A DNA stretch of 64,000 nt from Fasciola hepatica (taxonomy: Eukaryota > Platyhelminthes > Trematoda > Plagiorchiida > Fasciolidae), in the NCBI GenBank assembly GCA_948099385.1, contig CANUEZ040000129.1:5208001-5272000 (forward strand). The letters run 5' to 3'. The notes beneath the pieces are model-generated. The model saw only the letters and a list, made by a program, of their open reading frames with translations. It searched no databases and had not been told where the DNA came from. This document shows, piece after piece, positions 20,470-64,000 of this stretch. Numbering within the stretch: the stretch's first letter is position 1; each line of letters begins with the position of its first letter. Made by a program: the position numbers and the translations under genes.

Positions 20470-20625
20470 ACGTCTTATGTTTATGGTGTTCGATTCGCAA
20501 TCGTTCACCCCGGGTTCGAGTTTCATTTGGGCTTCATCGGATGCGCACTGCTGATGATTCCTAAGAAGGATGAAACAGCCATACAGTACTTCCGTGGTCT
20601 TCAACGTTTTGAACGTTCACACTGC
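20470..20625 (+). mobile_element. tRNA-derived SINE with hammerhead-like core, degenerate copy
   Basis: A tRNA-like head (GTTCGATTCGCAATCGTTCA, then a GGTTCGAG B-box) is followed by the same body as the copies at 30.6-31.0 kb. The hammerhead-like part is at 20545-20589: GCACTG, CTGATGA, a stem II arm TTCC/GGAT, GAAA, then TA and CAGTAC. Stem I has lost one pair and stem III is broken (CAGCCA), so this copy is probably inactive. Confidence 0.65.
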
Positions 20626-24439: not shown

Positions 24440-24448
24440 TATATAAAA
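24440..24448 (+). promoter_or_regulatory. TATA box of gene B
   Basis: TATATAAAA, 58 bases before the start codon at 24506. A transcription start about 30 bases downstream would give a 5' UTR of roughly 35 bases. The position and the absence of splice signals between it and the ATG support a core promoter. Confidence 0.6.
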
Positions 24449-24505
24449 AGACCACCATTTCTAGTTCAAAAACAATACAGTACAAGATTGCACTGCAGAT
24501 AGAAA

Positions 24506-24566
24506 ATGCGTAGCTTCACACTCTGTTCTTGGGTTGTTCTAGTTTCATTGCTCAACCTGACAAACG
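24506..24566 (+). CDS. Gene B exon 1, signal peptide
   Basis: ATG at 24506 is followed by 20 codons and one extra base before GTAAGT at 24567. The peptide starts M-R-S-F-T-L-C-S-W and continues with a hydrophobic core V-V-L-V-S-L-L, ending L-T-N: a short, typical secretion signal. The donor leaves phase 1 with a G, which is the phase every later exon expects. Confidence 0.85.
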
Positions 24567-27500
24567 GTAAGTCATGGAATAACTAAATATTCATGAGATC
24601 ATTTTTTTATTTAAATGCTACTGTACTCTGTTTCAAACTTGACTTTAGTGTATTTCAAGGATATGTATCTAAGGTTTATCGAGGCTGTGTTCCTTTTCAG
24701 CAGAAAAGCTAGTGCTTAACGAGGATATTTCATGTGCTCAGTTAGCGACTAGATAGGACACATTTTACAAGTCAGATTCAAAAACTACTTAGTGTGGCTC
24801 CAGCGTGTTAGAATTCCGTGGGTGGTTGTTGACCACGAAAATAAACAGGAGATTTTCACTTATTAATGGGGAAAGCTCCCCTCGTTTTTTGCATGTGGTC
24901 TAACTTTGGATTTTGTTCACCGTCAACACTAGCAATTTGAGAAATCTTTTACTGCCGTCCTCACCCAATGGATTCCATTCTCACCAATGAGTGTGTTTGT
25001 AATACACAACCACTGTAAAATTCCTCTGACTAGAAACTAATTCTAAGAAGACTATGTGGAATAAAAAGAATTCATGTCACTAGCGTGAATTAACGTTTTG
25101 ACCAGGTTACAAGTGTGAAGCCCTCGATTGAATGAAATCGTTTGTTTGCCGCAGATTTGGCATACTATTGTATGATGAATTCATTCGGAAGATGCGTACA
25201 ATGATTATCAAGTTGTGTGTAATGCTGTGTTCAAGTTAAATAATGACAAGATTAGGTAATGAATAAACGCTCCGCTGAGAACCGTACAATTTCTCATCCT
25301 AAGGGTCCATTCGAATAATACTTTCACTTAGTATGCCTATTTAAGTATAAACGTATGGAGCGTACCTCTCAGTGCAAGTATTATTTCTGTTGAATCGGTA
25401 GGACACACCAAAACTCAGAGGTGAAATGCGTTCAAAACCCTTCAGATTACGGTGGAAACGAAAACCACCTGAACTGAATGCAACCTGAGTTTGTTCACTA
25501 TTCAGATACGTACACTGTATAAATCCTTCCCGATCGTCTCAAGGTTGTCACAGGTTGACACACTATCTACACTGTGGTTCTAAGCATTTCGCAGTCAAAA
25601 CTCTTAGTGATAAACGAGCGAATATTTGCAACTGAGTATGATTTCCCAGCTATTTTGATTATCATCGACCTAAGCCTTGCTGTCACACACTTCGAAAGAA
25701 TGACGACGCATGACCGCCGTGAACAGCAATTGATGACTCGTTCCTAACATCTGGGTCTGTGGGTTGGATGATAACAGACTGTACATTACTGAAACACGTT
25801 GATTCTGCCTGTGTTCGCATGTGATTGTAAGGGTTTGATACAGTACCCCACTAAAAAATTCAACATTCATTCTTTTTTTCAGTAAAATGTGATTATGAAG
25901 AAGAGAGTGAGTTCAAAGCATAGACCTACTTGTTTAGGAGCACAGTATGTTTCAGTCCTCGAAACAAGTCACGAACCTTTTGGTCTTTGATACACTGCGA
26001 GTTCGAACATGTTACAGTCTGACTATAGCGTAGCACTTCTAACAGATATCGTGTTCTACATGACCTATAAGTGACTTTCTAGAGTTCATATCAAATTGAC
26101 CATAGTTATCATACTGGGATAAGGTTATTTGTTTGCAGTTGTATGCGATCCCGCCCGAAATTCTGTGCATTTATTGATAGACAACCTCCCCGTAAGCTGC
26201 CTTCTCACACTCGAAATGTGAAATCACAAAAACCCTTTGGCAGGAAGCCATCATGCTTCAATTTAGAAAATACCATTTACCTTCTGTGTGTCCGACCTTG
26301 AGAAACTTAATAACTGGGCCCCAACGGATTCAAAACTTATCTTGCTGTGGCCAAAGCCAAAACGTTTTGTTGACTTGTATAACACTTTACTAAAACATCA
26401 TTGAACTTAAGAGACTATTCTGTGTGTAAAAGCACTTATGAAAGCTCAGTATAAAAATGGAAAGCGCGAAATTAGTGTTTCTACTCTCGAAGCACCTGGC
26501 GAATGTACAACAAAACTTATATTTTAAAATTCCCCTAACTCAAGAATACTTGAAGTGAAAACGAGCACATGAAACGCTGCAGTCATTGTACGTTTAGACA
26601 AGCTAATTCAATCTACTGCAAGTCAGTTCAACGGGTTTGCTAACTGCAGTTGCTCGGTTCACACAACTGTTGTTCGACCTTAACTATATGAGCTTTGGTG
26701 ACAGTCGTCTGCCCGCCCACGATGTGATAATGCATATGTCGAAGCAAACGCAGGTATTGTCCTACTGCATTCCTTAAAATACACATTTCGTATCCAGAAT
26801 TAAAGGGAGTTCAGGTCTGCTGCAGTAGCCAGCGTTAAAATGCTTTTCAAGCCCCGAATATAAGCAGCAAAGTGGAACAGTTACTAGGTGTGAAGAATTC
26901 ATGAATGGGCTTGAAAGGGACTGAGTTTACTACTGGCGTGCATTGGTCTACGATACACCACTTTCGACTGGTAGATATGGTAGAATACAGTACAAACCTC
27001 AGTTGTACATTTCGACTACCAGTTGTGAACCGGCACGTCACTTGGGCCTCGTAACAGTTGATCCAATTTGGGGTTGTGCGTTGGTGATACATGGCACTGT
27101 TCTTGTTGAATGAATCAGGTTGCTAAACCAAGCATTGCGTATCTAGGGCCCGATCCGGGATACAGGCTCAAGAGCGGGATTACCGTCTCGGAATATCAAG
27201 GTGAACCTGTGATTAGTGGAACAGTTTGACCATAATTTCTTTTGTAACATGACCCCTTGAACTGTCTCTGCCACGCAGTGGTAGAAGGAATTCCACCAAA
27301 ATAGGCATGATTGATTTGAAACGACATTTTTGTTGTGAATCCGGATAGCTTACCGGTTTGATGTGGAATTAAATCACTCATGCAGTCCTGCAGTCCGCAA
27401 TCATAAGTCGTAGGATATAAACTGCTGACGTATATGAGTATAGCTTAACGAACAATCTGTTGTGATGATTTTGATTGTGAGTTGGATAACAACACCACAT

Positions 27501-30500
27501 TCAATAGCAATCTGTGTCCCACAACTGGAAAAAAAGTAGATAAATTGGATTGTACATAAATTTGTCTATGAAAACACTTTCCCCCGGTGACTTTCGAGCT
27601 GATTAGGTTGTCTACCCATCACCCGGATATTCGAGGTTCGAATCTTACCATCATCGGTCACTATGATGATACAGAGCATTCCTCACTGTAGGCCGATTCT
27701 TAATCACCCCTAGCCTTGTCGAAACGTTTGTGGTTCTCCATTTCAAGTCTTAGGGTGAAAATGACAATAATTTTAAGAAGTGCAGAGGACCTTCCTAGCT
27801 AACCTGCACCCCCATTCCACTGTACTGATTAGCAGGCATGTAACCGACAAGAAAAGGTTTAAAGTGCACGTACAAATATTTTCAATACTGAGAAATGCTC
27901 TGTAGGTGCATAATTTTGCAACCTCTGTAATCCACACTATGTTAACAGGTTCATGCAGTGAGTTATACCCAGAAAACTCTTTTTTTAGAGTTAAACAGTT
28001 TACTGTCCACATGTATTTAACCGTAGGAAGTTCAATTCAGATCTTGTGTTTTATTCGGCACAATGTAGTCCATCCAATGCGTTCCGCGATGCTGCAGATA
28101 TTTTAGGCGCCATGATTTTAAGACGGTCTATTCATAGTCTGGTAAATTGATGGAAAAGAGTTGTAAACTTCCCGTTTCATATTTTACCACCGAATTGCAG
28201 GAACTAGTTATACGTGATCAATAGAACTGGCCCTTCATTGTATTATCCTTGACCGTGAAATGCTTCAGCGAAATTTGCATCGAGGATGAGCATTTCCACG
28301 TTAGCACCCCTTTAGAACATATTATTTTACCGAAAATCCGATATTCTCATCCACGCTTATCAATGTCCCTGAGTTGACGTGTCTCGCACGAAATTCACCA
28401 AACAAAAAGAACCTGAGGAGAACGGTGCGAAGACCTCTTTGGATTAACATGCCCAATACCAATTATACTATTCAAATCGCCAATTACACTATCTGCAAAA
28501 CGGAGAATTGTAGCGGTTGCTTTATTTAGGAAAAAGAGAATACAGGAAATCAAACCACTAACAAGAAGGCTGACGAATGAGTAGACAGATACTGCAGATT
28601 ACAATCAGTGGATATGGCCAATTACTCTGCTACTTTCCTCATTCATAGAACCAACAGCAATCGATTGCTTTCATTTGCGGCAGGTTCTTGCACTTTAATG
28701 TTTATCAGAAATGAAGTGGAGAATGCAATTCACTTTCTCGAGCGTGTAAACTGTGTAAAGTATCTCGGCGTCACTTCACAGGAAAGCTTTTACTGGTCTC
28801 TACCTTGTAGAATCTCTGTCGAGAAATTGCGTCGACTGTCCTTTAAAATTCGCAGACTTTGACCATTCAGTGCTCCGTATTCTGTTATTTGTTCCTTCGT
28901 ACACTGGTGTACATTTGCAACAGTCCAATACTAATCTCCGGTACTTTTCCGTTGTTTATTGAAAAAAGCACTATCACTTTTCGTAGAGGTTTGCGCCACA
29001 TCAGTATTATAATCTTGAGGGACATCGCACTTAGATTATGTAAAAAGCAAATGGTAGCTTCCTTTCCTGACTGTTCATGCCCAGTGAATTACGAATTCTT
29101 TCTCACCCAATCCTAAACGTTGATCCGTCCCATAGTTAGACTAGTTCATTCAAAATTATTCATGAGCAATACTTCACAATTTCTTTCCATGCCCTTGCCT
29201 TATCAAACAAGGATGCAGTTTTATCGGAATTGCTAATCCACTTTAGCTTGCAGATATTTTCTCAATTTTTCCTAATCGACGGCTCAAAACCCCAGTGGAA
29301 TGGTTCTTAAGTCAATATCACAACAACCAGTGTAAACTAAAGATTTCACTGGAATGGAAGCTTCTGTTAGATCATCATCTTCGGTTTGCGTGTACAACCT
29401 ACAAGTTATCATGAACAGTGAAAAGATCTGTCTAGCTTCATCCTGATGTCTTCAAACTGGAATAGATGAAGTTGCTCCAGGCGAATTTTCACAATGAGAT
29501 CATCGGGAGAACAGAACCAGGGTAGAACAATGCAAGAATCTCGTTTGATTGATGTAGCCAATGCTAGTCATTCTATTCAGATCACCAATTTCACATTGCA
29601 ACTCAGCGAGGCTTTGCGACAGCCAGATACCGAAACAGTGAATACTGGAAATAAAAACAAGAAAGTGAAGTATACAAAATTAAGGGCTAGGCACTGCTGA
29701 TCTTGATCTTTGAGAGTTAATCGATAGATATAACCAAATACTTTCCCTGTAGTCCTTGAATAATCGCGGTAACTCGAATTTATTGTATCTTATTTGCAAT
29801 GACTTTTTACCATTCAATGCCAAATATATATCTTTTGAGAAAAAATGGGAGAACAGAAGTGGAAAACGGATATTTTTTACGATGCTGCTTGGTCTGATGT
29901 GCTGTGCACTGCGATTTGTTTCGTTAGCAATAGTGGTTCCTATTATTTACATTTGTTCATCGCATTTGCTTTCGAATAATTTTCTTCTAGGACGAGGTCG
30001 TAAGTTATTCTGACATTTGCTATGCTCCTTTAGAAATGATGCTCTTCTGAATGTTTTACCTACAAGTATTGGTGTTTTTCTGTTCCGTCCCGTTGGTTCT
30101 AGTGAGAAGACTCTCCTGCCTGCCAATCCTCACAATTTAATAGTACAAAATATATTGATTATATCAGATATGTTTTGATCAAAACCATAACCTTGCATAG
30201 AAGCTTAATGATAGATCTGAACGGCCCGTTCAACTGGTTCGTGTGATTGCACTTGGATTGGTTGATTCAGCTCTCTTTTGTTCAGACCAATGTTGACCAC
30301 TGATTAGTCCATTGATCGTTTCACCGTTTCCAATCCTGTCACCGATTCTGGTCAGCTAATCACATGCTGTCTACTCCACTGCCTCCGACGGTGTGCTTAA
30401 ATCTGGATGGGCTACCGCGTGCTGTCTGACTGCTGAAACCGGGGATCTGGCAAAGCTTTGTGCCCATTCTCTCACAGTTGGTAACTCCCCATTTGGAATT

Positions 30501-33500
30501 TGAGATTCTCAGCAATGAAGAGATATTTCCACCATTCTCCTATGATTTGCTGATTTACATTTTGTATCAGATTTTCTGAGACGAAATGCAGGTCCGTTGA
30601 CAGTTAATGAATTAATTAATATGATTCATCATGCAGCTTCAACGCTCAACTCACCATTGAAAACCATGGAAGCACTGTACAGCTGTTTCATCCTTGTTGG
30701 GACTCTTCAGCAATGTATATCCACCGAGCCCCCACGGGGACTCGAACCCGGGGAAGCGGGTTGTTACCGTTCAAAAGCCAGTGACGGAAGGGTGCTATAT
30801 CATGTAGTGTAGATGTTCAACAAACCATTAGGAGCCATGGCGGATAGCCTTGTGGTTAAGGTGTTCGATTCACAATCGTCCACCCCTTGTTCGAATCCTC
30901 GTGGGGGCTCGGTGGATGTGCACTGCTGATGATTCCCAACAAGGATGAAACAGCTGTACAGTGCTTCCATGGTTTTCAATGGTGGGTTGAGCTTTACAGC
31001 TGCATGATGAATCATATTATACAAATCTAATCTCTTACTACTAAATTGCAAATGAATTAGTTTTGCATTTGTGATTATGAATGAAGTGCAGTTTGGCGCT
31101 TTGTTTATGCATCAGGATAGTGTTGCCACTGACAGCATGGGAAGGGAATGGGTTTGTTTTTTGGCGGTAATTCCATTTTCCGTGATGGCAGTTGAACTTT
31201 CTGGGCTGTTGTCAGGGCCCAAAAGGACTCCTTTTGAGTCTGATAGTGATATTTTACTATTGCTATGAAATTTCTTGAATGTCCAACTTTACTGATCCAA
31301 ATTATATCCCAATGTTTCTTTATTCTAGGATATGTTCGTAAGTCGATTGCACTTTTCCTACACATCTTCAATACGATCAATTTTATTTGCACTTCGTGAA
31401 AATCTAGAGATGATGACACTGCAGTACGAACAGATGTTGCATTGTTTTTCCTATGACTGCTATTTCAGCTCACAAAATCCAGGCTGGATGATCATGGGCT
31501 TAAATGAAGGTCACTGTTATAGAGCTACACAGGAACTGGATAGCAGTTCTATAGTTCATAAGTAAAGAAGAGAGTTTAGTCGGCTTTCGATACGGTCGCC
31601 GACCGCAGAATACGCGCACTTGTTCCTCATTCCACCGATTCCATACTTAGCTTACAAAGCCAAAATATATGAAATGGTATAGCTTTGCCACGCCCGGGTG
31701 AGAACATAGTATAAACTAATGAGACATCATAAGCGAACAGTAACGGCTTCAGCAAGGGCTAGGATCCGCTGTGAGACTGGCTTCAGCCAATTGGGAGATT
31801 GGTGCACCGAAATGTAGATTCATTCGGTGTAGGTCTTGTGACTGATGTTGATTATGAAACCGAGGGAAGAATTGCGTTTTTGTGCATGTGTATCGAGCTC
31901 GTCCTGGCCTAACTGTTTATAGCACCATAAAGGTGATTTACAACAAATTGAATGTCACTTTTGACTGATAATAATAATCAGTAAAAACGGTAAATGCGAA
32001 ATTAGAAATACACAAAATCGACTTTTGGCAAGCGAGGGTTGTTTCTTTTTTGTTTGAACTGTTTTGAAACACTAATGGGTTTTCCAAGTAGTGTTTTATT
32101 CTGTTGATTTTCGAAGAATATTTCTGTTATTATTGTGGTTCCAACACTCTGTTTTCAGTACGTGGACGTAAGTAGTATGGTTGGGTCGGCGAAGTTTTAG
32201 CCGCGTTACTCGATAAAGTAAAACAAATACCAAATTTTATTAATATCAACCGTGATAAATAAGATTCAGTGCCGTTTATTACCCTTTGGTTTGCAACAAA
32301 AAAGAGAGTAAAAATCGATTTGAAAGAGATTCTCAAATGTACTGGTGAACAAAGATTATTTTGTCCATTTTTTTGCACTTCGACTTACGAAAATGTGTGC
32401 AACTCAGAAGTCTAATTTATTCACTTGCTTTCCGATCACCCGACTCTAGTTGTTGACAGAATGAGCGTTCTGTTCCGAGATGAGACCTCAGTGGGCTACA
32501 TTACAGAATAAAATAGTAATCAAAAGAAGAACATGCAATAGTATATGATAGAACCAAGAAATTCGTAACTCAGTCGGTGAACCGCACGCAGAAACGGCCG
32601 GAAAACGGGAAAAAGAAATGGCAAACCAATCATTGACTGACGTTGGTATAATATATGACTTCATTCGAATTTGAGTGAGTAGCCTCAAGTAATATTTCGA
32701 CTGGTTTTGGCAAAACTGGGGATATCGTCTAAATTCCGTGCACAACTACGTGCCCTAGAAAGGCGAAACTATTTGTTGACGAAATTAGATGTCAAAGTTA
32801 ATACCTATGCACTTACGCCTCCGAGTACGGAACAAGGGATGTGTTTCTCAGATGCTCTTGTGTTTCTATTTTGATTGTACTTGTAAATTATATTATTATA
32901 TTAACCTTAAATGAAGCTGTCGCATGTTTTGACAATAAGAATAATCACCGAACTACTCGATTTACAGCACCAGGCCGTAAGTGATTTGGGAATCACCTCG
33001 CCCATAGTCTATTTTCCTGGTGCACCGCCGTACATTGACCTACACAAAAATGGACTCTATTCGAATCTGAATAGTTGTCAAGCGTGGTCATTTAAGTTAT
33101 TTTCTATTATTTTTTGCTCAATAATTAGGGCTTTTTTATGGCAATAATTATCGGGTTTGAGAGTCCACGGCCCTATAGGAAGAAGTTGGGATAATGACAC
33201 TTTGGACTTGCAATAGATCATCACATTAGGTCTCCAGGTGTCAGGTGTGATAAACAGCCGTGGAACAGTGTAGGGTTACCTGCCAGCAATGGGATCAACA
33301 TGGAAGGAACCCATTCATCACAACTTTGAGATGATAGAAGCTTATACCCCCAAACTTCGCATTCCTGAACTAAACACACGACAAATTCAGTTCCCAACAA
33401 ATAAATCCACGAGTTGAATGATAACTAGCACAGGATTTTTCAGCGCGCGGACTTGCATCAGCACTACGGAATAACAAATAAATCTTTCTCCAACCGATAG

Positions 33501-42500: not shown

Positions 42501-43522
42501 ATATTCATTCATTATAATCTAATTGCGCTTGAAATAAAGCGGATCCGGATTCTCTCAAGTTGTAATAACTGAAAATGAGAATGTTTCTGACATCGTATAT
42601 TTAAGAGTATGAGCTGCAATCGAACAAACGGCAGATGTTCGAGACGGGAAGAAGTTGAATTTGCACAAACAAATAAGAAAATATAATGTTTTGTTTTCAT
42701 ATCGTAATAGGGTAGGTGGAATATATTTCTAAGCTAATCGTAATTTAGCTGCACTGGTAAGACCAACAACTACGAGGTTGTTCGGGATCACAGTGTGTGT
42801 GGATTTCAAGATTCCAAGGCTCACACTTGTTATCATGCCCGAGAAGATCGTCGTTCAGTTCAATCCACGTACGCACATAACAATCGTGCAGTCCAATCTG
42901 AGATTAGGGCAGTCAGTTTATCTTTGAACTTGGTGAAACTTTGATGTGAATTTTATAACCACTCTCAAATCTAACGCCGGTCAAAACAGTTACGCGTACT
43001 CAATCATGAGCTCCACGGCCATATTTTGAAATCCATCAGTCAGAAATTGAACTTAAAAATAAACTTTCCCATTCCTTTGTCGAAAACTTTTCTTAGTCTA
43101 TGATCTTGTACTAATGAGTACCTAGGGCGTTTTCGTCTAATACATTTAGACCAGTTGAACATAATCTGCTAAGTAGTGAGATTTTTTCGCTAAGTGGGAA
43201 ACGTTCAGTGCACATTACTACGTTTGAAAATATTTGATGCCATAGTAAAGTATACCTATTCAGACAGACTCAACAGTGCAAAAACTTCATTTAAATTGAT
43301 CATTCCTGTTCTGTCCATCCAAATCAACTCAATCCGTCAGAAAAAGGAGGTCAGTTGTCAATCAATTTAGTTCCGCTTGTGATTGTGTTGACGTTTATGT
43401 CACTTCGTGTTTCATGTGCATAGTATTGAGCATCGTCTAAAACTGAGTGTACTCGTCATCAATTACTGAGAAATCTATTGGTTCACATCCACAAATTACA
43501 TGAGAACAGAAGCTGAAGTCAA

Positions 43523-43580
<58 letters not shown>

Positions 43581-46500: not shown

Positions 46501-46589
46501 CCAGCTCGCAACCATTTCTTTCGTTGTATTATCCGTGACTATGCATAGAGGCATAATGACTGCTGAGCTGTCCACACTTCCAAACAATT

Positions 46590-46645
<56 letters not shown>

Positions 46646-52600: not shown

Positions 52601-53146
52601 GAATGCTACGCTTATTCATTCATGAATTCCCCGGACATATTACGAACTCCATCAGTCAGGCTATGGATTCATGGGAAGAAAGATTGTTTCCTACTTATTT
52701 GTGGAAAATCAAATCTTTTCATGTCAACGCCGGGTTTACAGTAATGTGCAATTAGATACCTGAAGCCTCATTACATATTATGTACGAAGAGTTTTCATTT
52801 GTGTCGGCAAATGTTTCAGTTTTGTATGCAAAGTTTTCTACATAAAACTGATCGTTGAACTAATTTCGTTGCCAGAGAGAGTTTCAAATTGGCGAAAACT
52901 TCACTCAAGTTGATCATTCCTATTCTCTCTTTCCAAATCAACTCAATCCGTCAGAAAAAGGAGGTCAGTTGTCAATCAATTCAGTTTCGCTTGTGATTGT
53001 GTTGACATTCGTGTCACTTCGTGTTTCTTGTGCATAGTATTGAGCATCGTCTAAAACTGAGTGTAATCGTTGTCAATTACCGGGAAACCAATTGGTTCAC
53101 ATCCACAAAATAACATGAGAACAGGAGCTGAAGTCACTACTACTAT

Positions 53147-53225
<79 letters not shown>

Positions 53226-56200: not shown

Positions 56201-59200
56201 AGCTTATCTGGTCTTGTTCTATGTGGAATAGCGCACTACACAATCAAAGAGGCTTTTCCTCCAGGATGATTAATTTGCATTCAGAAGTGTGCAGGCAATC
56301 TACTCAAGTCTTCTCATTCGATTCAAATTGTTTCTTCAGAGAAAGGAGGTGAGTCACAAATAAAGTTTGTGTATTTCGTCTATTATACATGTCTCTATGG
56401 CTAACTGATATAGGACCCTGTGAAAAACCATAAGGCGCCTAAAACGTTATCACTGTCATTCAGCAATCTCGTTAAATCGGTATCCAAGTGGTTTAAACCC
56501 ATCCGTTCAGCTTCAAGAAGAAACATTGCCTGATACGTCTTTGTGAAAGTAGTGATGAACATGTATTCTTGACTACCTATTGGCCGATACATTACGATTA
56601 GACTGTGCCAAAGAATGGCTCATTTTTGAGAATGGAAGAGAGTTATGCATTTTAAAATGCCCAGGTTTCTTCTGCTCTTCTGAATTCCTGTAAGTAAACG
56701 CTCATTCTATAGCTAAGTATCAGGATCAGGGGTGAAATTCCACGAGTCACCTAAGACAATAGTGTCCCTAACTGATTTCCTTTTGGTTTGTGAATGGCAA
56801 TTTGGGATAACCGGGGTAAATGTCATTGGAACTAGTTGCAAGAAGGTGATATGACCATTTCGAATCAAGTTGAGGCGACCTGATACGAATCAAACATGTC
56901 TGATTTGCTTTCACAATTCATGTTCTTTCATTCGAACCCAATTATTACTCCAGATAAAGGAGGTAAGCCGCCGTGTATTTACTTTGTATTGGTTTGAGTA
57001 TGCACCTGTACAGCCAAATGTGCAGCTGACATTATGGATAACCGCAGTAAACTCAAAGTATCCTCATTGGTGTTCACCGGTTCCTGTATTTCATCATCAT
57101 CTTCCTCTTGTAAATCAGTCCATTTGGATTTATACGCCTTCATTGCGCGCGAGCTATTTTAAAATATTTCCTTTTCACTGGCCATGTCCATGGCAAGCAG
57201 CTCTGTATCTTGCAACCAAGCAAAAGCTATGCTACTTTGCACGTGAAGAGCAATCATGCGTATTAGATAAGATTTCCGTTCTGGTTCAATCAAAACAAAT
57301 TTCATTTAATTATTTACGACATCATTTCATAGAACGAAAAATAAGTTCGTGGAATAGAACCACGTCGATTTGACTGAGATCAAGCTAACGCTCGTCTATT
57401 CGGGTTGACTGAAATGCATGCTAAGATTAGTGGATATGTGGACTTAAACATATCGTAGCCCGCTGCGTTGGAGTTAATCGGGTCTGGTGTACCATCATGT
57501 GATTTTATATAGCTCTATTCCGTAATGCTCATTTATTACTGGAATGCAAAATAATCAATAATTTTCGTGATCGAAAAAATCGAATGTTTCCCATATGTGG
57601 TATATCGTGCATTTTACGTGTACGTATACCATTCACTTATACTTATTTTATACCTGTCTTCTTTTCGTTCATTCATTGAAATCTAATTCATTCTTCAGAT
57701 AAAGGAAGTGAGTTATCCACGTGCACATTTCTGTGAGATCTGTTATTCTCATTTTAATTTGTTAGTCTGCTAACATGAGTTGTCAGCTAATTTGGACTAC
57801 TCAACGGATATGGATAAGCAGAATACGGATCGTTCACTCTGTTTTTTCATCTTCTTCATTTTCTGCTCACTTTTATCTCCAAGCCATTCCGAATGTTCCG
57901 GAAGAGCAAGGACCAGAAACGAGGATATTTCTGACGTTTCACGTTTAAGAACATGAGCTGCGATTGAATATAACGCAGATGTTCGGGATAGTGTTGCAAT
58001 ATGTAATATGCTGTGATCTTACATAAAAATATTAATGAGATATACGCGTTGCATGTCTGAGCTCATCTTATTCCATCTTCACTCGTAACGCCTAAGACGA
58101 CGAGGTGGTTCAGACATGCACTGTGAATGGATTTTCGAGTTTCCAGGGTCCAAACATATGATCCCAGATTGCTTGCGAAATTCACCTTGCTGTTCGTCAC
58201 ATCTAAACACATGAAGGTCAGAGAATAATTGAACAAACCTAGTCTGATATAGTTTGCGCATATCTGATCCAGTTCGATTTTTTGATATTTCCACATAGTA
58301 AGGCACGTAGATATTTTGGTTTGAATGCATCCTGCCACGGATAATCAAAGTTGGTAAATCCATGCCCTGTGTGGTGCAGTATGCACTGTAACTAGTATAT
58401 TTGTACGCTAACCGAATTCAATTTTCTCTCGCACTTGCACGAGTCACCCCTTTACATTCTTCTTTGCCAATTCCCCAAACTCGAATCAACTTGATGCACT
58501 AGATAAAGGAGGTGAGTCAGGAAGTGTACTTTTGTGATTGCTCGTGTTATATGTTGCATATATATGGCGTGGACTGCATGTAAAACAAAACGCGTTTGCT
58601 TCGTCATCAACTGTCGGTCTTCGGAACTGAAAACCTTACCATCTGATATGGACCAATCGATTGTCCGTGAACAGTGGATCACTTAGACATTGGTCCATGC
58701 ACTGCCCACTGTATATGTTCCATCACCAATTATTTCGGATCATTTCGACACACTCTAATGCGAAACCCTTTGGTACTAACAATCACATTTACTCAAATGA
58801 ACTACAAGTGATCAGTTTTGGATAATTTTCATTGAAAAGAAGTGCCTAACGCACATAGGTACACTGATGCACTCTAATACTGCCCGATATAATTTGATCT
58901 GATCTCGTGGAAGATGACTAAATTCAATCTGAATTACAGATTTCTCCTTGGAAACAATCGAAAACCAGCAGTCCTTTTCAAACCAGGCATTCTGTCGATT
59001 GGAGCTCAGATACTTTTGGTGTGAAACACTCAACAATTTTGGCAGACTGATTCAAATGAACATGTTGCATTCGTCTTAGGCAGCGAGAAACACGAATGAG
59101 CACCTCAAACGTGACGTGAGTTAAGGGAATTGACGCGAGAGACGTTTGTGTACCAAAATCCCGGTGTCGAAAGGAATGCGGAGAGGGTTTGGGCTTTTCA

Positions 59201-62200
59201 CAATATCACAGTTTTTGGCAAAAACGGACAGCTAGAACTAACAATGTGGTGGGCTGTGATAGTCACTTTAATGGGATGGCCTTTCTGCTTGAGCATGGGA
59301 GATATGATTGAAATCAGGGGGAACAAGGACCACAGAAGCAAGTTCCGGAGATCAATTCCTAGCAGAAAAACGAGAGCGAAATTACTGTCCTTTGATGTGC
59401 TAGCGATTGCAATGTCGATGTTATCGTGGATGACCGATTCGGCGGATGACTTTGCTTTGGGCACGATCGAAGCAAGTTAGTCACTGCAGTATTCAAGAGT
59501 AAGACAAAATCTGACCTTGCGTAGAGCAAAATGTTGTGTAGTTGGGAAATATATTCGTCACGAAAAAGAAAACCAATCGTTTTAAAGCTATTGAGACAAG
59601 AACAATTGCATATGCAGACCAAAAAATGAACTGGAGAATAAAAGACTAACGCGAACCAAGGGAAGTGAAGTATTTGGAGCAGTATAGTTGGAAGTAAGGA
59701 GTGGAGATTACAAACCATACCGGTGATTAGTCATCCGTCAATGACGTTCTTGGTACGACTAATGTTGATTCAAAATTGAGGTTCTCACATTCGAATAAGA
59801 TTTGTTGGACAAAAATGGGTTGGTGTTTTGCAGGTTCGAGGATTCACTACACTTCAGGATACGGGAAATTAGTGCAGTCTTCCAACATGAGGGATACATG
59901 TAATTTTCTTAAGATCGATTAAATAAACGACGGAGAATGGGTGCAGATTATCGTACACAGTCATCCAACAGAGTGGGACTGATGTCTTCCGGACCAAGAA
60001 GATTTGGTGTGTCAACTGAACGCAGAAGCTGAGGTAGTTTTCGGATGGCATTTTAGCCTATCAAGGCTCAGATTAGGTCAAGAGTTGAGATTCCGTGTGG
60101 ATACTTGACAATCTGGAGTTGAGTGCAAAAATGATGGTGGTAACTTTGGCTTTTCCTAGATTGAATGAATGAATATGTCGTCGATCAATTCAAGATAAGT
60201 GGAAATGAGGAAAGACAAAAATTGATGGGGGACGGATTTTGGGAGGGATTAGAAATAGTGGCTACCAGGGGGACGTGATTTTCACTCCTAACCTTTACGA
60301 TGATTGAATATTTTATCCATCGAGCACGAATACATAATATTTGGCCTGTGCTGATGTGCATATTTCACACAAACATTGGGCTTGGTATCGGAGCTAATGT
60401 ATGGGTGAACGATTCAGGGATTTAAATCAGTGAAGCATGAGCAAATATGCCTCAAAGTATAATTTGTGTAACGTTCCTAAAAGAAGTACTCAGAAAAAAT
60501 GCAATGCAGCATTCAGAATAGGTATACAACATTGGAAAGTCAGACATTACGCTTCACTGGTCTAATTAATCGGGGAAAGGGAAGTGAGAAACCTTGGAAT
60601 AAAATGATGAGTTTGATGTCAGTTAACGATCGTGCTTGTGTGCACGATCACCGGGGCAAAAGAGGACAGTGTAGAGAAATGGAATGGCGGGGAATGTTTT
60701 TTATCGACAACAAATGTTTCGCTTCCACGTCCCAGGATAGGGGCTCCGAAAGCGTGTATAAGCCGGTCACTGTTGTGGACACTGAAGTGACCTCAAATGA
60801 ATGTGTGGGAGCTGACGCTATTTATCAAAATATCTACCATAGGCTGCAACACGATTACAAAAAGGGATATAGTAGTGCTTTTGGCAGAGTGACGTAGAAT
60901 ACTTACATAATATAATATGATTCATTATGCAGGTTGAACGCCCAACTCACCATTGAAAACCATGGAAGTACTGCTCATGATATTGTAAACTAGGCTGTGG
61001 TTTTGAGCAATTAATTTTTAATTGTTCACACTTGACCGTTCATACCCAACCGGTGGTGGTCAGCTGGTTACCGTGGTGAACGTTAGCACATGCCGTCTCG
61101 GGTTCGAATTTCGTGGCAATCTCTACCGATGGCTTAGCCTAGCTGAGATCCTCTTAATAACCGCGATTCTCTTATCGAAAATATATGGTGTCATTGTATA
61201 ATAAAAGTGGGTAGTAAGGCAACAAAATGACTAATCAGAGATTATTGATGAATATTAAATGGCATAAAATAAAAGCATATCCAAGTTATGGTCTAAACAA
61301 CGAGGTGTTTCAATCTGACGGATCCTACGAAATTGGTTCTAGTAAAATTGGGCTGAATGAACATGCATTGCATTCGAAATAGTTATGGCAAAAAACGGGA
61401 AACATGTACAGCCTGGTTCAATCTTATGTGACGTGATGTTTCTTGCAGATATCTGTGGCATTGTAGAAAACGACCTCCTGCTTTCCGTGAAGTGTGTACA
61501 TTTTTCATCATGATGTAAGGTTCGCATCTACAAGTTTACATAGACTCCTCTAAAGTTCAATATTTTCGTTCCTCTATTAAAATCAACTTGATGCTTCAGA
61601 GGACGGAGGTGAGTCATGCTGAAGTGTCTGCTTTGCGTTTTGTCGGATTCTGTTGTGCTACTTGGTTCGAAGTGAGAACACACTCGGATGAAGCTGATAG
61701 TGTCCGTTCATGAATTTCCGGGCAGAATGTCGCTATTCTATAGCCTCTTTTTCTGTGCAAAACCCCACTGACCCATACACTGTGTAGAATGTGAACCCGT
61801 AAACCACACATTAGTAGGAATTATTGTAAAGGCAACCGAGCCAACTAACACTTATTCACTAACAATTGCAAAGCTCGATTGAAATACATTTGCAATATTT
61901 CCAGCAAGTAGTGACTGTGAACGACTTTGTTTCGAATTGGCTACTTCTGACATTATGAACTGCAATGAACGAAATCGGATGTGTTGAGGATTGGAAAGAT
62001 AGTCATTCTCTAGTTATTTGTTGCTTCATGGAAACGATTCAAAGTGAAGAATCATTTCTATGTGAATTTACTCCGATTGGTTGATTTGAACCTAGTTGAG
62101 CTTCGTGAAAACATGGCATCTGAAGTGCAAGAGCAGATGCACTGTAGAACAAGTTCCAATCGGAGTGGTCACTGTAAGAGTAGGTAAGAACTATATTTTG

Positions 62201-63966
62201 CAATGCTCATCCGGGCACAGATAATTGTGCAACCAATGACTTCACTCTTTTCTAATGTCATTTTCGTTCGATGAATGCAATATACATTCGCAAATGGTAA
62301 TATCCATCACGCATCTTCACTATTTCCATCCATTCCATTAAATCACTTGGATGATGCAGAGAAAGGAGGTGAGTGATGATGAATAGTGTGCCTGTGATTA
62401 ACTGTGTGCTTGTAAGACAGAAAGTGATCAAACTGACCACGAATAAAATTTAGATAGCTGAAACTAGTTAGCTTAATTGGTGTCTGTTTGTCACATACAC
62501 ACGAGTTACAACAATCACCAGTGTTCATAATCAGAATGTCGCTTATCTATTCGAACGCGTGTGCGTCCATTTACCATTTGTTCCATATCATACAAACCAA
62601 CACCGAATGTACACGATCGTGGTTCTGTCAAGTCGTACATGACCATTTAATCTGGGATCGAACATGATGGAAATATTTGTGGTTAGGATGATAATTTCTT
62701 TGCACATTTCTTCTAATATTACCGAACCAAATTCCTGTCACCTGAAAAGTATGTACTATAGCTCAAATACCCGCGTTCATTTTCGAACACACTTACATCC
62801 GTGAGACCATGTATCTGCATCGACTATCCGGTGATACCTGCGCTTTATTTGATTTAACTGCGTTATGTTTGTACGACTCAGTTCTACCCTTGAAAACCGT
62901 TTTCACTTCTCCTGTCGTTCAGAACAAGGACGTGAGTGTTTCGTCATATTTTCAAAATTAAATTGATTTCCATGAATTTCTTCATAGTATATCTGAATTT
63001 ATCTGTTGAAATACATTACGGAATAAAAAAGTAGACTAATTTCCTTGTTTATTCCTGAGGTGGTAACTTGTCATTCTCTCCCTAATCATTTGCTTTGCAT
63101 TACCAAGCTTGTGGACGTGAGTTCAATCCAGTGCTCCACTCTACGTTAAGTTGTAATGGTCTTCGCTGTTTCCAGTTACAACTTAGTATATTCCCCCCTC
63201 CAGACTAAAGGAGCTGATAAAATGGCCCTTCCCATGGTAGCTATTTTCGACTTCGTTTGATGGGCATTTTATGTTACCGAAGCTGTGGTTGATTCAATCT
63301 TGAAAAGGTCCGTTGAATTTAGCCCGTTGCGATCCAGGGATATGCCATGTTCTCCATTGTAGTTCAACAGAATGTGGTTCGCTACATCTTTTGATGAACT
63401 GACTCAGTTTCAAGTAGGCAGCTAATTTCAGTCACCTTTTGGTGTCACTTTGGGTTTCCGCTGATTCTTATGCCACTCGTTGCATTTCAATAACTTCAGC
63501 TCAAGGACGTAAGTTTCCTTTTCACACCGGCATTAGCGCCTATACTAATATGCAAAATGATGGATCATTTCTACTGAAAGAGACTTCCAGTAAGACGAGA
63601 TTCGATTCAACAGACAGATGTGTGCTACTAAACATTTTACTTTTGAAAAGCCACTTTATTTCGGAAGGTGAAGATAACAGAACCATCGAGTGCTTCCTTT
63701 GTTCTGTATGAGGTTCCTAATGCTGCAGTTTCGTTTGTTGGATTCTGTTCCATTTTTCGCAAAATACAGCCCGTGGACGTGAGTGCAAACATCTTTTACA
63801 TTCTCCCTCAAATATCGTTCCCTCTGACTGGTTTGCACATACTTTGATAACTTCATTCCTAATCACTACTGGTTTTGAGATGTGTTTCTTTATGGTAATG
63901 AAATTATCGACTAAATTTCCATGTTCATCAGAACCGACATTTTCCGTTCACTTTCAGCTCGTGGAC
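24506..63966 (+). CDS. Gene B: secreted collagen-like protein encoded by an array of 9-base micro-exons (3' end outside window)
   Basis: Plus-strand gene with a signal-peptide exon (24506-24566), a 24-base exon (25883-25906) and 39 exons of exactly 9 bases from 29991 to 63966. All are phase 1-1, so each adds one whole residue triplet, and 38 of 39 give Gly as third residue. Order of blocks: RRG, RYV, LRG, PPG, PPG, CTG; then 28 exons dominated by DKG/EKG; then EQG, PCG, PQG, PRG, PRG. Lys is at the Y position in 24 of the 28 central exons and an acid at X in 21. Known collagen chemistry makes K-G-D and K-G-E junctions, and Arg or Pro at Y, strongly stabilising for a triple helix, so a short secreted homotrimer is a reasonable inference. 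Layout (signal exon, many symmetric tiny exons) matches schistosome micro-exon genes. Typical animal collagens use exons of 45 or 54 bases beginning with a whole Gly codon, unlike this. No stop lies in the window. Isoform use is unknown. Confidence 0.85.
24701..24733 (+). CDS. Gene B candidate exon 2 (33 bases, weak donor)
   Basis: A strong acceptor (TCCTTTTCAG) precedes 33 bases in phase 1 that read A-E-K-L-V-L-N-E-D-I-S and one T, ending before GTGCTC, a poor donor. Length and phase fit the gene, and a new N-terminus after signal cleavage would make sense. If not spliced, the frame runs on to TAG at 24755-24757, which would make a short secreted isoform. Confidence 0.3.
25883..25906 (+). 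CDS. Gene B 24-base exon, acidic N-terminal segment with Cys
   Basis: TTTTTTTCAG acceptor, 24 bases, GTGAGT donor. After the G of exon 1 it reads V-K-C-D-Y-E-E-E and leaves an A. The single Cys just before the Gly-X-Y array could link chains (inference). The A makes the next exon begin with Arg. Confidence 0.75.
27585..27760 (+). mobile_element. tRNA-derived SINE-like repeat in an intron
   Basis: A B-box-like GGTTCGAATCT at 27635 follows a tRNA-like stretch (GCTGATTAGG, CATCACCCGG). The downstream part (TAATCACCCCTAGCCTTG) resembles that of the repeat at 61.05-61.19 kb only loosely. Boundaries are approximate. Confidence 0.4.
28600..29250 (+). mobile_element. CR1-like non-LTR retrotransposon 3' fragment in an intron of gene B
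   Basis: Translations over this stretch keep the end of an RT domain: VNCVKYLGVTSQESFYWS, then VEKLRRLSFKIRRL, then in other frames an A-P-Y-S-V-I segment and further post-RT sequence. Several frameshifts and stops. The family name is from recollection of trematode CR1-type elements and needs a search. Confidence 0.5.
29991..29999 (+). CDS. Gene B micro-exon, triplet R-R-G
   Basis: GACGAGGTC between TTTCTTCTAG and GTAAGT. With the A from the 24-base exon it reads AGA CGA GGT + C. It is the first Gly triplet of gene B and the only one using GGT. Confidence 0.75.
30615..30790 (-). mobile_element. tRNA-derived SINE with hammerhead-like core (minus copy)
   Basis: On the minus strand a B-box GGGTTCGAGTCC is followed by the body shared with the copies at 20.5 and 30.8 kb, ending in a tail near 30615. 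The hammerhead-like part is at 30672-30716: CTGAAGA, stem II GTCC/GGAT, GAAA, CAGCTG, TA, CAGTGC. Position 7 of the core is A, a site that tolerates any base. It lies head to head with the next SINE, about 40 bases apart. Confidence 0.75.
30832..31030 (+). mobile_element. tRNA-derived SINE with hammerhead-like core (plus copy)
   Basis: The head is TAGCCTTGTGGTTAAGG (A-box region), then a B-box GTTCGAATCC. The hammerhead-like part is at 30920-30964: stem I GCACTG/CAGTGC, CTGATGA, stem II UUCC/GGAU, GAAA, a self-complementary CAGCTG for stem III, and a TA at the cleavage position. It ends near ATGATGAATCATATT. It resembles the hammerhead-bearing SINE-like repeats known from schistosomes (Sm-alpha type). 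Confidence 0.78.
31329..31337 (+). CDS. Gene B micro-exon without Gly, triplet R-Y-V
   Basis: GATATGTTC between TATTCTAG and GTAAGT. Length, phase and splice sites fit the array, but it reads CGA TAT GTT + C, so Val stands where Gly should be. It may be an interruption of the helix, or a decaying exon that is skipped. Confidence 0.5.
32159..32167 (+). CDS. Gene B micro-exon, triplet L-R-G
   Basis: TACGTGGAC between GTTTTCAG and GTAAGT; reads CTA CGT GGA + C. If the 31329 exon is skipped, the incoming base is still C (from 29991), so the codon does not change. Confidence 0.82.
32968..32976 (+). CDS. Gene B micro-exon, triplet P-P-G
   Basis: CACCAGGCC between TTTACAG and GTAAGT; reads CCA CCA GGC + C. 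Confidence 0.85.
33805..33813 (+). CDS. Gene B micro-exon, triplet P-P-G
   Basis: CTCCAGGAT between AATTTAG and GTGAGT; reads CCT CCA GGA + T. It ends in T, so the next codon becomes TGT (Cys). Confidence 0.82.
34430..35990 (-). mobile_element. Decayed Ty3/Gypsy-type LTR retrotransposon fragment
   Basis: On the minus strand, 35343-35149 encodes an RT segment FSKNDLVNACLQISLDGKSS followed by LLTAMSTPLGLYKYNVLACGL, the usual Gypsy order. At about 34690-34440 an RNase H region follows, with TDASSTSIGAILEQ and, after a frameshift, YYQTQREALDVYWGV and FTIVTDYQ-LRFF. Frameshifts and stops throughout; no LTRs seen. It sits in a long intron (33.8-36.85 kb), explaining that intron's size. Confidence 0.65.
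36850..36858 (+). CDS. Gene B micro-exon, triplet C-T-G
   Basis: GTACTGGCC between TGTTTTCAG and GTAAGT. With T from the previous exon it reads TGT ACT GGC + C. The Cys depends on the exon before it being included: after a C it would be Arg. Confidence 0.78.
37335..37343 (+). CDS. Gene B micro-exon, triplet P-K-G
   Basis: CGAAAGGAG between GTTATAG and GTACGT; reads CCG AAA GGA + G. First exon of the Lys-rich block and the first to end in G, which sets up Asp or Glu in the next codon. Confidence 0.82.
38282..38290 (+). CDS. Gene B micro-exon, triplet E-N-G
   Basis: AGAATGGAG between GCTTCAG and GTGAGT; reads GAG AAT GGA + G. Confidence 0.85.
38975..38983 (+). CDS. Gene B micro-exon, triplet E-K-G
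   Basis: AGAAAGGCG between ATTTAG and GTGAGT; reads GAG AAA GGC + G. Confidence 0.85.
39610..39618 (+). CDS. Gene B micro-exon, triplet E-K-G
   Basis: AAAAGGGGG between ATGCTTCAG and GTGAGT; reads GAA AAG GGG + G. Both codons differ from the other EKG exons while the residues are the same. A TGC lies just before the acceptor. Confidence 0.85.
40313..40321 (+). CDS. Gene B micro-exon, triplet D-K-G
   Basis: ATAAAGGAG between ATTTCTTCAG and GTACGT; reads GAT AAA GGA + G. Confidence 0.87.
40997..41005 (+). CDS. Gene B micro-exon, triplet D-K-G
   Basis: ATAAAGGAG between GTTACAG and GTGAGT; same nine bases as the exon at 40313, in a different intron background. Confidence 0.87.
41723..41731 (+). 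CDS. Gene B micro-exon, triplet E-P-G
   Basis: AACCGGGCG between TTAATCAG and GTGAGT; reads GAA CCG GGC + G. Confidence 0.83.
43341..43349 (+). CDS. Gene B micro-exon, triplet E-K-G
   Basis: AAAAAGGAG between CCGTCAG and GTCAGT; reads GAA AAA GGA + G. The donor has C at the third position, seen only here and in the duplicated copy at 52955, so both may be spliced less efficiently. Confidence 0.78.
43523..43580 (+). repeat. (CTA)n microsatellite
   Basis: About 19 uninterrupted CTA units in the intron of the duplicated segment; the other copy has a longer run. Confidence 0.95.
44077..44085 (+). CDS. Gene B micro-exon, triplet D-K-G
   Basis: ATAAAGGAG between GCTGCTTCAG and GTGAGT; reads GAT AAA GGA + G. 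TGC precedes the acceptor. Confidence 0.87.
45253..45261 (+). pseudogene. Broken micro-exon with lost donor (would be D-K-G)
   Basis: ACTCAG is followed by ACAAAGGAT and then TTGAGT instead of GTGAGT: the invariant G of the donor is T. Spacing, acceptor and nine bases otherwise fit the array. Without a donor it should be skipped, which does not disturb the frame. Confidence 0.7.
46023..46031 (+). CDS. Gene B micro-exon, triplet D-K-G
   Basis: ACAAAGGAC between GTGCTTCAG and GTAAGT; reads GAC AAA GGA + C. It ends in C, making the next triplet start with Pro. Confidence 0.85.
46598..46639 (+). repeat. (TA)n microsatellite
   Basis: About 21 TA units within an intron of gene B. Confidence 0.95.
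46817..46825 (+). CDS. Gene B micro-exon, triplet P-K-G
   Basis: CGAAAGGAG between CCCTTAAG and GTGAGT; reads CCG AAA GGA + G. The acceptor is AAG, rarer than CAG or TAG, but a C/T-rich tract (ACCCTTCCTTCC) lies upstream. Confidence 0.75.
47564..47572 (+). CDS. Gene B micro-exon, triplet D-K-G
   Basis: ACAAAGGAG between GATTCAG and GTGAGT; reads GAC AAA GGA + G. Confidence 0.87.
48251..48259 (+). CDS. Gene B micro-exon, triplet D-K-G
   Basis: ACAAAGGAG between GATGCCTCAG and GTAAGT. TGC precedes the acceptor, and upstream AAATCAACTCGATGC resembles the same region of the exons at 58503 and 61600. Confidence 0.87.
48994..49002 (+). CDS. Gene B micro-exon, triplet E-K-G
   Basis: AAAAAGGCC between CCCTTTCAG and GTGAGT; reads GAA AAA GGC + C. 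Confidence 0.85.
49811..49819 (+). CDS. Gene B micro-exon, triplet P-K-G
   Basis: CAAAAGGAA between CTTCCAG and GTGAGT; after C it reads CCA AAA GGA + A. The final A makes the next codon AAA (Lys). Confidence 0.83.
50548..50556 (+). CDS. Gene B micro-exon, triplet K-K-G
   Basis: AAAAAGGAG between GTCTTTCAG and GTGGGT; after A it reads AAA AAA GGA + G. If the 49811 exon is skipped, the incoming base is C and the codon becomes CAA. Confidence 0.8.
50735..50752 (+). repeat. (TA)n microsatellite
   Basis: About 9 TA units between two closely spaced micro-exons. Confidence 0.9.
50821..50829 (+). CDS. Gene B micro-exon, triplet D-K-G
   Basis: ATAAAGGAG between GATTCAG and GTGAGT. The intron before it is only 264 bases, about a third of the usual spacing in this block. 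Confidence 0.86.
50836..52889 (+). other. Long intron of gene B without a recognisable exon
   Basis: About 2.1 kb, nearly three unit lengths. The strings GCTCAAAAGGACTTACC (51281) and TTTCCAAGGTCC (52411) look like worn remains of an exon region and of a shared intron block. No intact acceptor, 9 bases and donor found. ORFs at 51429 and 52439 are unrecognised. Confidence 0.45.
52955..52963 (+). CDS. Gene B micro-exon, triplet E-K-G
   Basis: AAAAAGGAG between CCGTCAG and GTCAGT, identical with its flanks to the exon at 43341 through duplication. Confidence 0.78.
53136..53225 (+). repeat. (CTA)n microsatellite
   Basis: About 30 units with one interruption (ATT) near the start; expanded relative to the copy at 43523. 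Confidence 0.95.
53721..53729 (+). CDS. Gene B micro-exon, triplet A-K-G
   Basis: CAAAAGGAG between TATGCTTCAG and GTGAGT; after G it reads GCA AAA GGA + G. TGC precedes the acceptor. Confidence 0.86.
54071..54079 (+). CDS. Gene B micro-exon, triplet D-K-G
   Basis: ACAAAGGAT between GCTGTTTTAG and GTGAGT; reads GAC AAA GGA + T. The T gives Phe in the next exon. The intron before it is only 341 bases. Confidence 0.85.
54841..54849 (+). CDS. Gene B micro-exon, triplet F-N-G
   Basis: TCAACGGAG between CTGCTTTAG and GTAGGT; after T it reads TTC AAC GGA + G. If 54071 is skipped, the incoming G gives Val instead. TGC precedes the polypyrimidine end. Confidence 0.78.
55623..55631 (+). CDS. Gene B micro-exon, triplet E-K-G
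   Basis: AAAAAGGAG between CATTTCAG and GTAAGT; reads GAA AAA GGA + G. Confidence 0.87.
56340..56348 (+). CDS. Gene B micro-exon, triplet E-K-G
   Basis: AGAAAGGAG between TTTCTTCAG and GTGAGT; reads GAG AAA GGA + G. Confidence 0.87.
56954..56962 (+). CDS. Gene B micro-exon, triplet D-K-G
   Basis: ATAAAGGAG between TACTCCAG and GTAAGC; reads GAT AAA GGA + G. Confidence 0.85.
57699..57707 (+). CDS. Gene B micro-exon, triplet D-K-G
   Basis: ATAAAGGAA between TTCTTCAG and GTGAGT; reads GAT AAA GGA + A, so the next triplet starts with Asn. Confidence 0.86.
58503..58511 (+). CDS. Gene B micro-exon, triplet N-K-G
   Basis: ATAAAGGAG between GATGCACTAG and GTGAGT; after A it reads AAT AAA GGA + G. 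Upstream AATCAACTTGATGC is shared with 61600. Confidence 0.84.
59190..60050 (-). mobile_element. Jockey-like non-LTR retrotransposon C-terminal fragment in an intron
   Basis: On the minus strand, frames joined across breaks give the usual end of a Jockey-type pol: a L-N-S-F-K-T-I-G-F-L-F segment, then S-K-V-I-R-R-I-G-H-P-like, LQSLAHQRTVISLSFF, a C-S-S-E-L-like stretch and a L-S-V-F-A-K-N-C-D-I-V segment. Higher-coordinate parts (59.87-60.05 kb) hold N-L-L-G-P-E-D-I-S-P-T-L-L-D, as upstream of an RT core. Much of the RT core is missing. It explains the 3.1 kb gap before the exon at 61600. Confidence 0.55.
60912..60976 (-). mobile_element. 3' fragment of the hammerhead-bearing SINE
   Basis: TATGATTCATTATGCAGG and CTCACCATTGAAAACCATGG match the tail region of the minus-strand SINE at 30615-30670. 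The hammerhead part and tRNA-like head are absent. Confidence 0.7.
61045..61190 (+). mobile_element. tRNA-derived SINE-like repeat
   Basis: TGGTCAGCTGGTTACCGTGG (A-box-like) followed by GGTTCGAATT (B-box) about 30 bases later, then a short body with CTGAGATCCTC. It is a different family from the hammerhead-bearing SINE. Boundaries approximate. Confidence 0.5.
61600..61608 (+). CDS. Gene B micro-exon, triplet E-D-G
   Basis: AGGACGGAG between GATGCTTCAG and GTGAGT; reads GAG GAC GGA + G. TGC precedes the acceptor. Confidence 0.84.
62360..62368 (+). CDS. Gene B micro-exon, triplet E-K-G
   Basis: AGAAAGGAG between GATGATGCAG and GTGAGT; reads GAG AAA GGA + G. Last Lys triplet in the window. Confidence 0.86.
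62923..62931 (+). CDS. Gene B micro-exon, triplet E-Q-G
   Basis: AACAAGGAC between CGTTCAG and GTGAGT; reads GAA CAA GGA + C. It ends in C and marks the change from the acidic/Lys block to the Pro block. Confidence 0.84.
63108..63116 (+). CDS. Gene B micro-exon, triplet P-C-G
   Basis: CTTGTGGAC between ACCAAG and GTGAGT; reads CCT TGT GGA + C. The acceptor is AAG; the same nine bases follow CAG in gene A at 838. Confidence 0.76.
63500..63508 (+). CDS. Gene B micro-exon, triplet P-Q-G
   Basis: CTCAAGGAC between ACTTCAG and GTAAGT; reads CCT CAA GGA + C. Confidence 0.85.
63770..63778 (+). CDS. Gene B micro-exon, triplet P-R-G
   Basis: CCCGTGGAC between ATACAG and GTGAGT; reads CCC CGT GGA + C. 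Confidence 0.85.
63958..63966 (+). CDS. Gene B micro-exon, triplet P-R-G
   Basis: CTCGTGGAC between CTTTCAG and GTGAGT; reads CCT CGT GGA + C. Last exon in the window; the open frame and the GTGAGT donor show that the gene goes on. Confidence 0.85.
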
Positions 63967-64000
63967 GTGAGTGCAAAAAACTTCTACACTTTCTACAGAT

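Follow-up and report, generated by a model that had tools for sequence, protein, structure and literature searches.

A predicted collagen gene of Fasciola hepatica in which each nine-base micro-exon contributes one Gly-X-Y triplet

The 64,000-nucleotide stretch of Fasciola hepatica DNA analysed here (the window) very probably carries a secreted collagen gene, referred to below as gene 2, in which every 9-base exon contributes one Gly-X-Y triplet and whose exon array is likely to have been extended by the duplication of units of about 0.74 kb. The lengths and phases of the exons, their splice motifs, the glycine register, the likeness between units and one block copy are directly visible in the locus.

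Gene 2 starts with an exon of 61 bases (24506-24566, plus strand) that ends in phase 1 at a GTAAGT donor and encodes MRSFTLCSWVVLVSLLNLTN, whose likeness to a signal peptide was judged by eye. A TATA-like motif, TATATAAAAAG (24440-24450, plus strand), is placed 66 bases upstream of the start codon. The second exon, of 24 bases (25883-25906, plus strand, splice score 21.3), is also in phase 1 and adds the residues VKCDYEEE. The nine-base exons follow, all on the plus strand. A recount between 24506 and 63966 gave 39 such segments between an AG and a GT, 32 of them followed by GTAAGT or GTGAGT, both figures in agreement with the initial annotation. An exon does end at 63966, where that annotation had closed the array, but this position need not be the end of the gene; the window stops at 64000.

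The array opens with RRG (29991-29999), RYV (31329-31337, the sole exon without Gly, which fits the splice motif), LRG (32159-32167), PPG (32968-32976), a second PPG ending in T (33805-33813), CTG (36850-36858) and PKG (37335-37343, donor GTACGT). It continues with ENG (38282-38290), EKG (38975-38983 and 39610-39618), DKG (40313-40321, donor GTACGT, and 40997-41005) and EPG (41723-41731), and with EKG (43341-43349, donor GTCAGT) and DKG (44077-44085), which lie within one copy of a duplicated block. Between this copy and the other are DKG (46023-46031), PKG (46817-46825), DKG (47564-47572 and 48251-48259), EKG (48994-49002), PKG (49811-49819), KKG (50548-50556, donor GTGGGT) and DKG (50821-50829), and the other copy contains EKG (52955-52963, donor GTCAGT) and AKG (53721-53729). 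Further downstream are placed DKG (54071-54079, last base T), FNG (54841-54849, donor GTAGGT), EKG (55623-55631 and 56340-56348), DKG (56954-56962, donor GTAAGC, and 57699-57707), NKG (58503-58511), EDG (61600-61608), EKG (62360-62368), EQG (62923-62931), PCG (63108-63116), PQG (63500-63508), PRG (63770-63778) and a last PRG (63958-63966), the final one inside the window. The 40 introns have a median length of 737 bases and the median exon-to-exon spacing is 744 bp, so that the 436 coding bases represent 1.1% of a span of 39,461 bases.

The pattern AG, nine bases and GT(A/G)AGT occurs 38 times on the plus strand of the window, compared with a mean of 2.06 and a maximum of 7 in 100 dinucleotide shuffles and with 5 sites on the minus strand, of which a pyrimidine-tract filter keeps 3. 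Every other exon length from 4 to 63 bases gave between 0 and 7 sites on the plus strand. Length 3 gave 25, none of them with a pyrimidine tract, because the GGAGGTGAGT core yields 3-base sites as a by-product. The same filter retains 38 of 38 plus-strand sites at length 9 and at most 4 at any other length. With splice-score cut-offs, whose matrices were trained on the 9-base exons themselves, 39 matches were found window-wide at length 9 and no more than 4 at any other length from 3 to 120. Seven of the 39 donors depart from GTRAGT (GTACGT and GTCAGT twice each, GTGGGT, GTAGGT and GTAAGC). The six exons found in the matrix scan (37335, 40313, 43341, 50548, 52955 and 54841) were detected only by matrices trained on the rest, and these weaker-donor exons therefore rest partly on the model. 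The acceptor scores of some 9-base exons are low, with a minimum of 2.0, which counts against the gene reading.

The register of glycine agrees with these splice signals. Among the 38 sites picked by the splice motif alone, which include five of a second gene described below, 36 have GG at exon bases 6-7, against a background of 3.8% and none of the five sites on the minus strand; the protein register, proposed by the initial annotation as an independent signal, thus survives a selection made on the motif only. The two exceptions are the Val exon at 31329 and a 9-base site at 27949-27957 (GTTCATGCA, donor GTGAGT, in a 4-kb intron), which is open and in phase, has no Gly and was excluded from gene 2; it may be an extra, non-collagen micro-exon. 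Reading in the phase set by exon 1 places Gly as the third residue in 38 of the 39 exons, as previously annotated, through GGA (31), GGC (5), GGT (1) and GGG (1), the exception being GTT at 31329. The last 37 triplets are uninterrupted.

Exons of several triplets were looked for across the whole window, and no site of 18, 27, 45 or 54 bases exceeded the splice-score cut-offs. One 36-base site did exceed them, and is absent from the open, in-phase sites for 1-6000 and 24567-64000. The sites at 29928 (72 bases), 1609 (69), 44044 (42) and 45993 (39), and the 3-base sites at 33811 and 32974, each end at the donor of an accepted 9-base exon and could at most be alternative acceptors. Those at 36519 (15 bases) and 59404 (72) are open and in phase, and were left out for want of other support.

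Exon 1, exon 2 and the 39 nine-base exons join into a single open frame of 145 residues that stays open through the last exon seen. The predicted product consists of the signal-like peptide, VKCDYEEE, the triplets RRG RYV LRG PPG PPG CTG PKG, a Glu/Asp-Lys-Gly-rich run and EQG PCG PQG PRG PRG. No stop arises in the 38 codons split by introns, which is modest evidence alone because 63% of random exon orders create at least one. The product matches the Pfam family PF01391 (Collagen) with an E value of 9.1e-21 (73.8 bits, cut-off 27.2), and a PDB sequence search returned solved collagen chains as the top of 70 matches with E up to 1. The collagen-like character assigned in the initial annotation is borne out by this match and by the open frame; what needs amending is that the array does not stand alone, an apparent sister gene 3' end being present at 587-3034. 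A protein search with the full-length product gave 377 matches at E up to 1e-10 among 7,989 candidates scored, alike by composition, and among the 120 matches listed five bear organism names (three bacterial, one coral and one fish). A search with the N-terminal 56 residues brought up 7 length-matched candidates and no relative among them at E up to 10. Lys occupies the Y position in 24 of the 39 triplets, giving ten Lys-Gly-Asp and eight Lys-Gly-Glu steps, a type of step that stabilises triple helices with little hydroxyproline.

Transcription, splicing, secretion, trimer formation and the tail of gene 2 are predictions from this arrangement. The chain would likely form a small secreted trimer, with a signal peptide followed by a short, acidic, Cys-bearing linker, a helix of at least 37 triplets in which Gly-Asp-Lys and Gly-Glu-Lys abound, with Pro-bearing ends containing Cys, and, by analogy with the upstream gene, a short Cys-bearing tail at the C-terminus.

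A closer look at the exon content shows that each 9-base exon provides two bases of the X codon, then the complete Y and Gly codons, and ends with the base that opens the following X. Each intron consequently splits an X codon. The wording that each exon encodes exactly one Gly-X-Y triplet is off in this respect. Since all 39 exons are 9 bases long and in phase 1, the addition, loss or skipping of one of them changes one triplet and leaves the frame and the Gly register intact, and exon gain or skipping could alter solely the split X codon.

G is the favoured last exon base before a GT donor. In the 27 related exons of the central part the last base is G in 22 and the first base is A in 23, and as a result X is mostly GAN (Asp or Glu), while the Y codon is mostly AAA (Lys). 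Over the whole array, X after an exon ending in G (n=23) is Asp or Glu in 22 cases and Ala in one, and X after an exon ending in C with another exon downstream (n=11) is Pro in 9. The third base of X (exon base 2) has a pairwise identity of 0.23 in the central exons, and where X is GAN its variation does no more than swap Asp and Glu. The last two exon bases, 8 and 9, are mostly A and G and do double duty, as Gly wobble and first X base on the one hand and as donor consensus on the other. The donor consensus is therefore likely to write part of the collagen protein, and we infer that consensus and protein composition shape one another.

As for the splicing itself, joining 39 exons of 9 bases would require micro-exons to be spliced in very efficiently. 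The branch site may lie in an A-A-N-C block conserved at -19 to -16. The splicing of regulated micro-exons elsewhere uses the eMIC domain and UGC motifs, according to PMC8797185, and such a route is possible for these 9-base exons. The UGC motif accompanies 11 of the 39 exons (p 0.019), and 10 of these 11 belong to the related exons of the central part; a code dependent on UGC was not retained, as the enrichment is weak and confounded by shared descent.

The growth of the array has left traces in the central region. The 27 central units were compared pairwise with exons and splice sites masked, at separations of 850 bases or more. Of these pairs, 21 matched at E up to 0.1, 11 of them in register, whereas the reversed and random controls gave 1 and 2 matching pairs, none in register. 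The adjacent units at 48994 and 49811 share 60% identity across 657 columns. The best preserved copy is the two-exon block mentioned above (43278-44095 and 52892-53739, both on the plus strand), with 88.4% identity over 850 columns. Both copies contain TAC/ACT microsatellites, at 43523-43580 (19 repeats) and 53136-53225 (30 repeats). A fossil exon, ACAAAGGAT (45253-45261, plus strand), follows a CAG, has its donor changed to TTGAGT and reaches a short-matrix score of 12.3; this site rests on the short matrix, and the profile trained on the central units did not include it. A possible second fossil, ATAAACCAT (52000-52008, plus strand, score 9.4), has no GT donor. After these, the highest non-exon scores were 6.2 (twice) on the plus strand, and the minus strand reached 4.9. 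The central-unit profile recovers the central units by construction and was excluded as evidence.

Outside the exons the sequence has mostly decayed. Single conserved columns are found upstream of the exon (e.g. -31, -18, -16, -12 and -8), and the flanks of the 27 central exons (columns -40 to -32 and +13 to +26) show pairwise identities of 0.26-0.43. All 27 central exons have GG at bases 6-7 and a G at donor +5; they all have AG and GT as well, but the search criteria demanded these. Compared in this way, the units suggest that stretches of about 0.74 kb, each carrying one 9-base exon, were likely duplicated to extend the array. Their likeness, the 88% block copy and the fossil at 45253 together point to both gain and loss of such units.

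Two dispersed repeats, SINE-like by eye, have copies in the introns of gene 2 (20474-20629 and 30849-31007, 79% alike; 30613-30677 and 60908-60973, 91% alike). A gypsy-type pol-like remnant, recognised by eye, is located on the minus strand at 34200-35700, in the 3-kb intron between the exons at 33805 and 36850. Elsewhere on the minus strand, a decayed reverse transcriptase fragment (13552-14022) matched RVT_1 at 0.0013, below the Pfam cut-off, and none of 43 candidates was related to it at E up to 0.001. A Pfam scan of ten open frames, from 43 of at least 90 residues, left nine without a match and gave this RVT_1 match for the tenth. Rfam and tRNA scans of the window, and comparisons with viral contigs (one pattern) and plasmids (one 1.3-kb stretch), returned no match.

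About 21 kb upstream of gene 2, the segment 587-3034 probably represents the 3' end of another gene (gene 1), built in the same way and on the same strand. Its plus-strand 9-base exons encode PRG if C precedes (587-595), PCG (838-846), PPG (1268-1276 and 1669-1677) and PRG (2280-2288), and are followed by a candidate last exon, also on the plus strand (2949-3034), inferred to encode RSG and KPCKYFRRPCDIRAVSYRLNIVNHC and to end with TGA (stop at 3032). An AATAAA lies downstream at 3460. The candidate exon also contains a GTGAGT at 2999 that could act as an alternative donor, so that the exon could end elsewhere. The tail of gene 1 (43 residues), examined with regard to the C-terminal NC1 propeptide of fibrillar collagen genes, matched PF01391 alone in Pfam, below its cut-off. 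The exons at 587 and 63500, with their flanks, are 76% alike over 55 bases, and gene 1 has, like gene 2, a Cys-bearing PCG triplet, which in both is the fourth from last of the 9-base exons seen. From this shared position, gene 2 may end soon after 64000.

Several other explanations of the array were weighed against this evidence. Gene 2 could be a real gene made mostly of cassette exons, from which splicing picks subsets to give a ladder of chains differing by single triplets, in the manner of the variants of micro-exon genes (MEGs), for which variation of proteins by splicing is reported in the part of PMC4350168 available. This is a genuine possibility, though we lean against it. All 39 exons are symmetric and a skip preserves frame and Gly, just 18 of the 741 possible forward joins create a stop (all following the two exons ending in T), and central joins give Asp or Glu at X in 247 of 351 cases and a stop in 4 of 351; on the other side, GTRAGT donors in 32 of the 39 exons favour constant use, and chains of unequal length would have to pair in the trimer. 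That gene 2 is a recent or ongoing pseudogene is very unlikely. The fossil at 45253, perhaps another at 52000, the Val exon and the seven off-consensus donors would fit such decay, but the 38 split codons are free of stops and Gly is kept in 38 of the 39 exons despite diverged introns, and a matrix requiring neither AG, GT nor GG finds just the one clear and the one possible decayed copy.

A non-coding DNA repeat, with a conserved core that happens to resemble an exon with splice sites, is an even less probable account of the segments. The kinship of the central units does extend past the exon, so part of their likeness is shared descent; the Pro/Arg exons found in gene 1 and at either end of the array, however, share little with the central ones beyond AG, 9 bases, GG and GT, the phase matches that of the signal-peptide-like exon and the 24-base exon, and exon base 2 varies freely where Asp and Glu codons permit. 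We give equally little credence to the idea that the 9-base exons are relics of a primordial collagen gene unit. On reasoning alone, a single triplet is the smallest possible collagen building block, yet the fibrillar unit proposed in PMC2852846, as far as the accessible text goes, has an intact Gly codon first and an intact Y codon last, whereas X is split here, and the unit likeness and the 88% copy indicate local growth.

Collagen genes are the textbook case of growth via exon duplication, with the origin of the 54-bp exon too old to be seen. In a collagen gene made of single-triplet exons, the recognisable one-triplet units, the 88% block copy and the exon fossil make a model of exon amplification testable base by base. 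We tentatively suggest, as something that may well be so, that the triple helix is written wholly in single-triplet exons, that unit duplication in the genome and splicing in the cell can set its length by single Gly-X-Y steps with frame and register kept, that the exon-amplification model of collagen origin has been caught in action at the smallest unit possible and that the donor consensus dictates an Asp/Glu-Lys collagen. If true, the locus would offer a clean test of micro-exon splicing, with 39 nine-base exons in one transcript, and a case of splice-site rules shaping protein composition. ORF-based annotation would miss a gene of this design, and short-read aligners and tryptic proteomics would likely miss it too; trypsin cuts after Lys, and Lys at Y would produce many peptides of just three residues. 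Genes of this kind may thus go unnoticed elsewhere.

The closest known design of small exons is found in the MEGs of Schistosoma mansoni (PMC10526429, PMC4350168 and PMC4671649, as far as their available text goes), in which a signal peptide in the 5' exon is followed by many short exons, 10-20 in number and of 6-81 bp (most of 15 bp), with lengths mostly divisible by three and introns of 0.1-5 kb; MEGs encode secreted proteins, form tandem clusters in some cases and are hard to annotate automatically. Gene 2 resembles this description in its signal-like peptide, its small symmetric exons and its long introns, and differs from it in at least 39 uniform exons of 9 bp and a predicted collagen product. 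The MEG definition requires a coding part mostly of micro-exons below 36 bp divisible by three, which is the case for 39 of the 39 exons and for the 24-bp exon 2, and a longer 3' flanking exon, for which gene 1 has the candidate at 2949-3034, while gene 2 runs off the window. The word collagen has no occurrence in the main text of PMC10526429 and PMC4350168, and in the consulted portion of PMC4671649 it occurs once, as an unrelated transcript.

Among collagens, fibrillar genes share with gene 2 a helix thought to be built by duplicating an exon-bearing unit in whole triplets. Their unit, in the available text of PMC2852846 and PMC4450265, is a 54-bp exon beginning with an intact Gly codon, from which 45-bp exons derive; it thus spans six or five triplets, and the exons of gene 2 have one triplet, 9 bp, phase 1 and a split X codon. 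Collagen-like database proteins rich in Gly-Asp/Glu-Lys are like the product of gene 2 in composition, its N-terminal part being without a match, and to our knowledge bacterial collagen-like genes have no such introns. Exons of 9 bp are present in human COL4A5 as well, as exons 41A and 41B. They are described as two alternatively spliced exons in the accessible text of PMC7160674, whose reference list includes Martin and Tryggvason (2001), which contradicts the statement of the initial annotation that known collagens use exons of 45, 54 or more bases. By length each would be one triplet, as in gene 2, but COL4A5 has just these two cassette exons in a large gene, against a whole array here, and its intron splits the Gly codon (c.3790 ends exon 41 and c.3791 starts 41A; PMC7160674, same text) and not X. 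No collagen gene built of 9-bp exons is described in the titles or abstracts among the matches listed from the open-licence literature. Single 9-bp collagen exons were therefore already known, and what is new here is a collagen helix in which no exon size other than 9 bp is detected.
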